The notes beneath the pieces were generated by a model. The model made no database searches. It was not told the DNA's origin and saw only the letters and a program-made list of their open reading frames with translations. The position numbers were made by a program, and so were the translations under genes. From Geothrix sp. PMB-07 (GTDB taxonomy: Bacteria > Acidobacteriota > Holophagae > Holophagales > Holophagaceae), in the NCBI RefSeq assembly GCF_030758935.1, contig NZ_CP132333.1:4092992-4156991 (forward strand): 64,000 bases of DNA, read 5' to 3'. Of this stretch, positions 12,571-63,571 are shown one piece after another (the first letter of the stretch is position 1; every line of letters begins with the position of its first letter).

Positions 12571-12647
12571 GCGGCTGTAGCTCAGTTGGTTAGAGTACTG
12601 GATTGTGATTCCAGGTGTCGCCGGTTCGAGTCCGGTCAGCCGCCCCA
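12571..12647 (+). tRNA. tRNA-His (GTG), CCA encoded
   Basis: Cloverleaf with acceptor stem GCGGCTG/CAGCCGC, anticodon stem CTGGA/TCCAG and 7-base loop with GTG at 12605-12607, T-arm CGCCGGTTCGAGTCCGG. G at 12570 can pair with C at 12644, giving the extra G-1:C73 pair that identifies histidine tRNA. CCA is encoded at 12645-12647. A possible -10 box (GATAAT) lies at 12550-12555; no good -35 box is seen. Confidence 0.97.
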
Positions 12648-12686: not shown

Positions 12687-12790
12687 GACAAGCCAAAGGA
12701 CTCGAACCGGCGACAGTGGGCTTGCGGAGGCCTTCCGGGGGAAGGCCGGGAGCAAGACCGGCAGACCGCCAAGCGGGCTGCGGCCGGTCA
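12687..12790 (+). repeat. tRNA-linked structured element, His copy
   Basis: An exact 18-nt inverted copy (12698-12715) of the T-arm of tRNA-His (12616-12633) is followed by GTGGGCTTGCGGAG (12716-12729), an 8-bp stem with a GGG loop (12729-12747), GGGAGCAAGACCGG (12748-12761) and a second hairpin (CCGC-CAA-GCGG, 12766-12776, extendable to 12757-12789). The same layout follows tRNA-Arg and tRNA-Pro in this window, with different stem sequences but conserved pairing. CTTGC and GCAAG flanking the hairpin can pair as an outer stem. No protein is encoded. Function unknown. Confidence 0.75.
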
Positions 12791-48239: not shown

Positions 48240-48347
48240 AGTGCGCCCAGCTGGACTCGGGCCAGCGAGTGGGCTTGTGGAGACAGCGCAGGGCGCTGTC
48301 GGAGCAAGACCGGTGGCTGGCGCAGCCAGACACAGTTCGAGGCCAGC
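48240..48347 (+). repeat. tRNA-linked structured element, Arg copy
   Basis: 48241-48267 is an inverted copy (25 of 27 matches) of tRNA-Arg 48211-48237, i.e. T-arm plus acceptor 3' strand, with a 3-base loop. Then GTGGGCTTGTGGAG (48269-48282), hairpin GACAGCGC-AGG-GCGCTGTC (48282-48300), GGAGCAAGACCGG (48301-48313), hairpin TGGCTG-GCG-CAGCCA (48314-48328), and a direct T-loop copy GTTCGAGGCCAGC (48335-48347). Same plan as the His and Pro copies, different stem sequences. The conserved flanks can pair CTTGT/GCAAG with a G-U wobble. Confidence 0.78.

Positions 48348-63037: not shown

Positions 63038-63571
<534 letters not shown>

Follow-up and report, generated by a model that had tools for sequence, protein, structure and literature searches.

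Behind several of its tRNA genes, Geothrix sp. PMB-07 carries a small structured element that opens with an arm antisense to that very tRNA and continues into a folded core. Its position, its covariation-based structure, a match to its own tRNA that tracks changes in the T-stem, mismatches biased toward G-U and a predicted anti-tRNA fold are shown below.

Core structure and placement behind tRNA genes

The window, a stretch of 64,000 nucleotides of this genome, holds five cores at three tRNA genes, with the following parts.

12571-12647, + strand: tRNA-His (GTG); ARAGORN and Rfam RF00005
12644-12687, + strand: palindrome of the tRNA-His CCA end, trailer and terminator-like hairpin; sequence and computed fold
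12698-12715, + strand: His antisense arm, 18 nt complementary to tRNA-His 45-62; 16/16 for 47-62
12715-12761, + strand: His core (P2 and hp1, with GGA/GGGA internal loop); cmsearch with R2, 69 bits
12762-12780, + strand: His second hairpin, hp2, with CAA loop; sequence, fold and consensus
12780-12790, + strand: degenerate sense copy of the tRNA-His 3' part (GCGGCCGGTCA); by eye, 5/10 to the T-loop
48163-48239, + strand: tRNA-Arg (TCT); ARAGORN
48243-48268, + strand: Arg antisense arm, complementary to tRNA-Arg 47-72, with two G-U at U54 and U55
48268-48313, + strand: Arg core; cmsearch with R2, 67.1 bits
48314-48328, + strand: Arg second hairpin, hp2, with GCG loop; sequence and fold
48335-48347, + strand: sense copy of part of the tRNA-Arg T-loop (GTTCGAGGCCAGC); 9/10
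63495-63571, - strand: tRNA-Pro (TGG); ARAGORN
63426-63438, - strand: antisense arm of Pro-TGG copy 1, 13 nt, to tRNA 47-59; sequence
63380-63426, - strand: core of Pro-TGG copy 1; cmsearch with R2, 70.7 bits
63337-63360, - strand: sense copy of the tRNA-Pro 3' end (53-76 with CCA), closing copy 1; 10/10 in the T-loop, 19/19 through CCA
63268-63280, - strand: antisense arm of Pro-TGG copy 2; sequence
63222-63268, - strand: core of Pro-TGG copy 2, in a 158-bp unit; cmsearch with R2, 66.1 bits
63179-63202, - strand: sense copy of the tRNA-Pro 3' end, closing copy 2; sequence
63110-63122, - strand: antisense arm of Pro-TGG copy 3; sequence
63064-63110, - strand: core of Pro-TGG copy 3; cmsearch with R2, 67.3 bits
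63028-63044, - strand: degenerate sense copy of the tRNA-Pro 3' end, closing copy 3; sequence

These five cores are the sole matches in the window below E = 3 with covariance model R2, the next best having E = 3.6. Rfam at gathering score returned the three tRNAs and no other family in the window. The Arg arm begins 3 nt past CCA, and neither the scan nor the fold gave a terminator in between. At the His locus (L035) the inverted match of the palindrome across CCA is 13/14; the terminator scan flagged this palindrome on the - strand only, and no + sense terminator was flagged at any of the three window loci. The label "terminator" is accordingly our reading of the hairpins, inferred from sequence and unsupported by the scan at these loci. 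No sigma-70-like site was found around the three loci, in a scan that does not cover other promoters.

The core is 47 nt long and follows the plan A-GTGGG-NNNG(C/T)-GGA, an 8-bp stem with a 3-base loop, GGGA, the helix partner and GACCGG or AACCGG, after which comes the second hairpin. The initial annotation had described an element recurring after tRNA-His, tRNA-Arg and tRNA-Pro, with an 8-bp hairpin closed by a 3-base loop, a second hairpin and co-varying flanks (TTGC/GCAA, TTGT/GCAA and TCGC/GCGA); all of this held, for three tRNAs and five cores. Its claim that the inner stems have no common sequence between loci failed: GACAGCGC, from the Arg locus, reappears at Pro-CGG, and genus-wide a few hp1 sequences reappear at different tRNAs. 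The GGA/GGGA internal loop, held to be constant, is partly so, that of Arg being GGA/GGA, one base shorter. A further correction is that the third Pro copy reads GGAGTGAAACCGG. It had also missed the sense copy of the own-tRNA T-loop that lies behind the second hairpin.

We built covariance model R1 from seven copies of the Geothrix sp. PMB-07 genome, and R2 from 150 copies. In the alignment of the seven copies (A3, six of them distinct), 84 of 84 cells pair, and six pairs are changed on both sides. The 150 copies, spread over 95 loci, were fitted to the model in alignment A5 (127 distinct rows), where 98.1% of cells pair and 12 of the 14 model pairs show double-sided changes. Cells with a double change number 386 against a shuffled mean of 116; none of 500 shuffles was as high on any measure, and slid structures collapse. 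As a guard against circularity, 68 of the 79 distinct first copies were aligned without structure (A6). From this alignment RNAalifold recovered hp2 as well as both helices, outer and inner, and 14 of the 16 pairs carry changes on both sides; in the hp1 columns a pair is broken in up to 14 of the 68 sequences, where 3- and 5-base loops were cross-aligned. The P2 helix occurs as TCGC/GCGA, CCGC/GCGG, TTGC/GCAA, TCGT/ACGA, TTTC/GAAA, CTGC/GCAG, TTCT/AGAA and others. Selection for the structure of the core, as had been proposed, is thus supported by model-fitted alignments, structure-blind alignments and shuffles.

On the strand read, the non-Watson-Crick cells of the stems comprise 35 G-U against 14 A-C, besides 36 other non-pairs that partly reflect mis-set registers. 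Because G-U exceeds A-C in the stems, the tRNA strand is the likelier folding strand. Of the 150 copies, 121 have GGA on each side of the internal loop; a CCGA/GAA variant replaces GGA/GGA at four loci (L052, L056, L070 and L126).

Some copies are further elaborated. Extra hairpins are nested in the hp1 loop at L042, L080, L095 and L096, and the motif CCCTGAGCCG.CAGGCGAAGGG recurs in L080 and L096. At some tRNA-His loci (L318, L324, L328 and L341) we observed a variable extra hairpin domain, GTCGCGAC...GGGTGACG...CGAAGTCGGG, placed either in the second unit or in the stretch that separates the arm from a diverged core.

An intact tRNA lies upstream on the same strand for 134 of the 150 copies (95 loci), within 110 nt for 83 of them, at 111-400 nt for 48 and at 402-476 nt for 3. 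The tRNAs served are those for Pro (three anticodons), His, Arg (two), Met, Asp, Thr, Asn and Ser (two), twelve by anticodon. Sixteen of the 150 copies have no intact upstream tRNA. Eight of these stand behind the 3' part of a tRNA, either immediately or as units further along (L063, L104 twice, L109, L113 and L118 three times), most such parts beginning in the anticodon loop. Five more (L039, L051, L052 twice and L065) have merely 10-220 nt of upstream DNA, L032 is a copy beyond an insertion at Pro-GGG, and the two copies of L076 are preceded by a Pro-type antisense arm, the tRNA being unresolved. By eye, the lone copy in genus g9 (L136) stands behind the 3' half of a tRNA-Arg. The tRNA 3' parts at L104, L109, L113, L118, L063 and L136 resemble, and may be, what is left at the far end when an island integrates in a tRNA, here tRNA-His, -Pro, -Met and -Arg. 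Many loci give a single match; the window Pro-TGG locus gives three and L041 at least 4.

With a covariance model at hand, the genome and its relatives were searched, which gave nine copies in the genome and many beyond it. In the 4.24-Mb genome of Geothrix sp. PMB-07, the nine copies that R1 finds at E up to 1 belong to Pro-TGG (three), Pro-CGG, Pro-GGG (two), His, Arg-TCT and Arg-CCG. All nine stand beside a tRNA or a tRNA 3' fragment, and none elsewhere; the two Pro-GGG copies flank a 16-kb prophage-like insertion. Asp, Met and Ser-GGA carry elements that R1 misses.

Within the family, R1 is positive in 44 of 77 genomes: Geothrix, the genus of the window, accounts for 40 (of 47 genomes), and the other genera together for 4 of 30 (2/2, 1/4 and 1/6 in three genera, 0/18 in the remaining genomes). 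R2 is positive in 27 of the 396 genomes of a phylum sample, all within Holophagaceae. A pattern scan of named genomes (84,980 species) returned 50 stretches, of which 49 are titled Geothrix, Holophagaceae or Acidobacteria. Within what was searched, the core is a family of the Geothrix clade. Viral contigs were scanned with a 14-base pattern, which has too few bases, and a viral reservoir is not excluded. L294, labelled Ca. Nomurabacteria, was considered as a copy outside the family and is read as a chance match: it has no tRNA in 8 kb and, by eye, neither an antisense arm nor a palindrome at hp1. The single short pattern GTGGGMTYGYGGAG was also rejected, as a definition of the element. It has nine exact matches; of these, L002 is spurious, with no tRNA in its 3-kb locus and no hp1 palindrome, and the real copy L036, which needs one mismatch, is missed.

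In related genera, the antisense arm behind some tRNA-His genes leads into a body of another kind. At L394 the stem is longer but bears a head of the same type (GGA, 7-8 bp, AGT loop and again GGA), and whole tRNA 3' ends lie between the tandem units. L396 has a shifted core, L397 an arm, and L403, L409 and L410 another body; no arm was seen at L395, L399, L400, L402, L404 and L405 in the stretch inspected. More broadly, L394, L396, L403, L407, L409 and L410, from other Holophagaceae, show arms behind tRNA-His or tRNA-Phe with very different structured bodies.

A separate observation concerns prophages. The left end of a Mu-like prophage has three occurrences in the genome of PMB-07 (exact 20-mer, up to 2 mismatches allowed), all just behind a tRNA: behind Pro-CGG and Pro-GGG, both inside the element, and about 95 nt behind Ser-TGA (L421, position 622480). 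The Mu-like prophage loci of this genome are L027 (3089800-3108800), with an rve and Mu-transpos_C transposase and a TniB-like ATPase, and L028 (1305500-1325400). The insertion at Pro-CGG has a CTGGC duplication, and a similar prophage end cuts a copy of the element in another genus (L116). DNA behind tRNAs appears to be a target of Mu-like prophages, with or without the element. The same genome has two adjacent RVT_1 reverse transcriptase matches at 2527951-2529880, possibly a defence system or a retron pair.

The antisense arm and the predicted anti-tRNA fold

The sequence that precedes the core is complementary to the own tRNA in 83 first copies, from position 47 onward in 72 of them. The complement of position 47 coincides with the first base of the core model in 60 cases and is set off by a 2-nt spacer in 12. 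The remaining 11 of the 83 arms lie at other offsets, some with an inserted hairpin. Later copies in arrays have arms that often retain only part of the match.

We compared own with other tRNAs over positions 47-62 in 48 distinct tRNA/arm pairs, with 15 tRNA sequences and Ser dropped. The own tRNA is strictly best in 44 of the 48 pairs and best or tied in all 48. The mean arm match is 14.75/16 to the own tRNA against 11.41 to the other tRNAs of the set, and in the T-stem 4.90/5 against 2.91. As the arm position was picked by the best own match, there is some bias toward the own tRNA; the background of the search is 8-11/16. Within an isoacceptor, the arm tracks differences between species, with four T-stems for Pro-TGG, three for His and two each for Pro-CGG and Arg-CCG.

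The 46 distinct tRNAs of the PMB-07 genome were searched for the antisense of their own positions 47-62 within 250 nt. His reaches 16/16, Asp and Met 15, and Arg-TCT, Arg-CCG, Pro-CGG, Pro-GGG and Pro-TGG 14/16. Val, at 13/16, is the shadow of the neighbouring tRNA-Asp; Tyr and Ser-GGA are at 12, and the other 35 tRNAs at 8-11. The best 16-mer of Ser-GGA is not its arm, which on sequence inspection is antisense to the 3' part of the tRNA beyond about position 57. In all, nine of the 46 tRNAs bear an arm.

The mismatches between arm and tRNA at positions 49-62 are 28 G-U, 3 A-C and 14 other. Opposite a tRNA U, the arm has G in place of A in 24 of 166 cases; opposite a tRNA A, it has C in place of U in 1 of 98 (Fisher 1e-4). 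These wobble statistics are uncorrected for relatedness. Because G-U far exceeds A-C, we infer pairing of RNA (or of single strands) on the tRNA strand, since fold-back copying of DNA should not prefer the wobble of one strand. An RNA of the antisense strand was also considered, as the palindrome gives the reverse strand a tRNA-like 3' half end; the wobble counts favour the tRNA strand.

Behind the second hairpin, 67 of 82 first copies have a sense copy of the T-loop with 9-10 of 10 nt matching. In 6 of the 82, the window Pro-TGG among them, this sense copy extends to the end of CCA, 18-19 of the last 19 nt being the same, whereas the other 76 have 8-14/19. At two loci the arm follows the tRNA and the sense copy does not (Pro-CGG, TCGCGAGTTCAACTCT; Pro-TGG, TCGCGAG), and on the strength of these discordant loci we reject the idea that the match was caused by the arm pairing with the sense copy in the same element. 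A palindrome across the CCA end (at least 11/14) includes the arm at 49 of 79 loci; in the genome of PMB-07 such a palindrome is found at 2 of the 9 tRNAs with an arm and at 0 of the 37 without.

In folds computed from the tRNA through the arm, the arm captures positions 47-62 with P > 0.5 at 78 of 79 loci, failing only at the window Pro-TGG, and the acceptor stem is retained in 0 of 79. When the 46 tRNAs of the PMB-07 genome were folded with a 75-nt tail, positions 47-62 were taken by the tail in seven (P >= 0.84): His, Met, Asp, Arg-TCT, Pro-CGG, Arg-CCG and Ser-GGA (0.84), each of which has an element or a diverged one. Tail pairing in the other 39, of which 37 have no arm, reaches a P of at most 0.28. 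The tail of the window Pro-TGG refolds weakly (P 0.12) and does not take the T-arm (0.04), and the Pro-GGG arm lies beyond the 75-nt tail. Loss of the acceptor stem is non-specific, 6 of the 37 tRNAs without an arm also falling below 0.5. The computed folds ignore co-transcriptional folding and tRNA modification. The anti-fold cannot be a simple off switch, because at the Arg-TCT loci nothing stands between tRNA and arm, so that the tRNA must usually escape the arm and be made; likewise, E. coli tyrV must make its tRNA despite a tail that refolds in silico.

Returning to the initial annotation, the inverted copy of the own T-arm that it reported held and is refined, the arm being antisense to the tRNA from position 47; its claim that each copy matches its own tRNA also held, the own tRNA being best or tied in every distinct pair. 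The tRNA-dependent targeting or generation that it inferred is not established, and there is no evidence for an enzyme that targets the element via the tRNA. Whether the match of arm and tRNA arises by targeting, by copying or by selection for pairing is undecided; the wobble pattern of the mismatches favours pairing of RNA (or of single strands) as the force that at least maintains it. Three outcomes would have refuted the element, namely no further copies, unpaired stems or a placement unrelated to tRNA, and none occurred. A chance origin is rejected on the genome placement, the background of the arm search, the shuffles and the own-tRNA match.

Proposed role and rival explanations

Transcription, termination, processing, refolding in cells and function are all inferred from sequence alone, without expression data. 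The reading that we favour, without holding it to be quite probable, is a structured RNA akin to the tRNA-linked repeats (TLRs) of E. coli, located in the read-through part of the pre-tRNA transcript, with an arm that forms an anti-tRNA fold. Transcription would proceed past the first terminator-like hairpin (at Arg-TCT, simply past the tRNA), which would make the element the tail of the pre-tRNA transcript. The first arm, an anti-T-arm, would pair with positions 47-62 of its own tRNA, and often with more, giving one long hairpin rather than a cloverleaf. The core hairpins and hp2 would form the body of a stable RNA, which would probably be set free when the transcript is processed at two places, the hairpin and the tRNA-like sequence further downstream. 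Its most likely use would be to remove read-through precursors from the tRNA pool, to supply a small RNA in step with tRNA transcription, or both. If the anti-tRNA fold is real, individual tRNAs would be controlled from inside their own transcripts.

A bolder reading, which is possible, is that of a tRNA-specific refolding switch, with cis-acting "anti-T-arm" RNAs in at least two phyla (relatives of Geothrix, and E. coli tyrT/tyrV). Termination or read-through would then decide between a working tRNA and a long hairpin with a small RNA. If true, such a switch would explain the purpose of tRNA-linked repeats.

A tRNA-anchored mobile or selfish DNA element is a possible alternative. The arm and the sense copy would be its inverted end repeats, spread between T-arms by a recombinase or by T-loop recombination; units would multiply in tandem, and the hairpins would be recognised as folded single-stranded DNA. 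In its favour, the arm and the sense copy do form inverted ends (e.g. GGATTCGAAC / GTTCGAATCC), tandem arrays hold from 1 to at least 4 copies (L041), hp1 sequences are shared between tRNAs (GGCCCTCC, for one, by those for Met, Arg, His and Pro), related genera have several unlike cores behind the same type of arm, and hairpins are nested in hp1 loops. Folded single DNA strands would also give a bias of G-T over A-C. Against it, 17 of the 20 tRNA-His loci of the genus with downstream DNA inspected, from a sample of 30, have the arm with the core or a diverged core, as expected of an old resident, although synteny was not compared. The units contain no gene, no copy in the own genome lies away from tRNAs or tRNA 3' fragments, and the arm tracks the tRNA even where the sense copy departs from it. 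No Y1_Tnp gene comes closer to a copy than 11.7 kb and the RVT_1 pair lies hundreds of kb off, other recombinases being outside the search; a local reverse transcriptase or Y1 transposase was therefore rejected as a candidate, each being present in the genome and adjoining no copy.

It is less likely that the element is in essence a trans-acting small RNA, whose stable body would serve, for example, as a sink for a GGA-binding regulator, as reported for E. coli rrB and CsrA, and whose arm would merely aid processing or bind free tRNA fragments; there are no CsrA-binding data. GGA on both sides of the loop in 121/150 copies, multiplied by the arrays, speaks for this view, as does the binding of CsrA and Hfq by E. 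coli rrA, rrB and rrF (PMC8144298). Against it stand the CCGA/GAA variant (L052, L056, L070, L126), the absence of a sigma-70-like site at the three window loci, other promoters not being covered, and the scoring of tRNA-type TLRs as unlikely CsrA ligands (PMC8144298). Also unlikely is a neutral by-product: template switching during replication, at the palindrome of the terminator, would generate an inverted copy of the tRNA 3' half and keep it in step with the tRNA, and the arm would have no role. The inverted copy is continuous with the palindrome across CCA in 49/79 loci, as fold-back copying would give. However, this explanation accounts for neither the common end point at position 47, nor the covarying core, nor the G-U bias of the mismatches, and the other 37 tRNAs of the own genome have no arm, several of them with terminator-like hairpins behind (by eye).

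Comparison with known systems

In the literature searched, no report of the element was seen; relevant are a study of E. coli TLRs (PMC8144298) and its editorial (PMC9245011), and PMC5217627 describes an unrelated palindrome behind Methanopyrus tRNAs. REP/RAYT palindromes are short hairpins with a preceding GGAG-like tetranucleotide that recur in intergenic DNA. Unlike them, the Geothrix element is tRNA-bound, has few copies and carries arms to its own tRNA; no RAYT-type neighbour was found among the 7 Y1_Tnp matches of the own genome, the nearest being 11.7 kb from a copy. The guide RNA of IscB-type systems has about 16 nt complementary to the target, directly followed by a conserved folded scaffold. 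Here, in contrast, such a guide would point at an intact tRNA gene of the cell itself, and a guide RNA for DNA targeting is judged unlikely because it would aim at the own tRNA. Compared with an integrative element, the tandem units of Pro-TGG are bounded by direct repeats, and a unit of about 120-170 bp is too small for a gene.

The E. coli TLRs comprise 22 repeats in ten loci, one to five in each, and their last 18-19 bp equal the end of the upstream tRNA or 5S; they have been known since 1978 and have no known function (PMC8144298). The rrA, rrB and rrF repeats arise by read-through and bind Hfq as well as CsrA, and rrB sits between two terminators, is read through and is processed (PMC8144298). 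The 19 tRNA-type TLRs were scored by algorithm as unlikely CsrA ligands (PMC8144298). An antisense arm to the tRNA is not mentioned in the passages of PMC8144298 consulted.

We re-found the 3'-end copies in E. coli, at 18-19/19, after tyrT, tyrV, argQ, argZ and argV. The repeats of tyrT and tyrV (NC_000913.3) also have a 22-nt arm antisense to the 3' half of their own tRNA, with 19 matches each (0/300 shuffles). Such an arm is not significant at argQ (77/300 shuffles), argZ (285/300) and rrfB (143/300), and is weak at argV (11/300); a match at argY (2/300) is the next tRNA gene and was discarded. In silico, the tyrT and tyrV tails refold, whereas those of argQ, argZ and argV hardly do.

RtT (RF00391) has no match in 6 element loci at E up to 1. 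This model finds four E. coli tyrT/tyrV repeats and not the arg or rrn ones, and is thus no test for all TLRs. Searched against the whole of Rfam at E up to 1, the same 6 loci gave no non-tRNA family that reaches gathering score. The Geothrix element differs from TLRs in its core and its phylum; its antisense arm is general, and the whole sense 3' end through CCA is as a rule absent. Like the TLRs (rtT/RttR of tyrT, the argV, argZ and argQ repeats, and rrA/rrB/rrF), it stands directly behind tRNA (for TLRs, or 5S), in tandem and rich in hairpins. It is therefore best described as TLR-like rather than as a member of the TLRs, no homology having been detected. It makes up a second, larger set of tRNA-tailing repeats, spanning twelve tRNA species and 44 genomes of a single family, in which two features are constant: the folding of the core, and the arm's complementarity to the own tRNA, which is kept as that tRNA changes.
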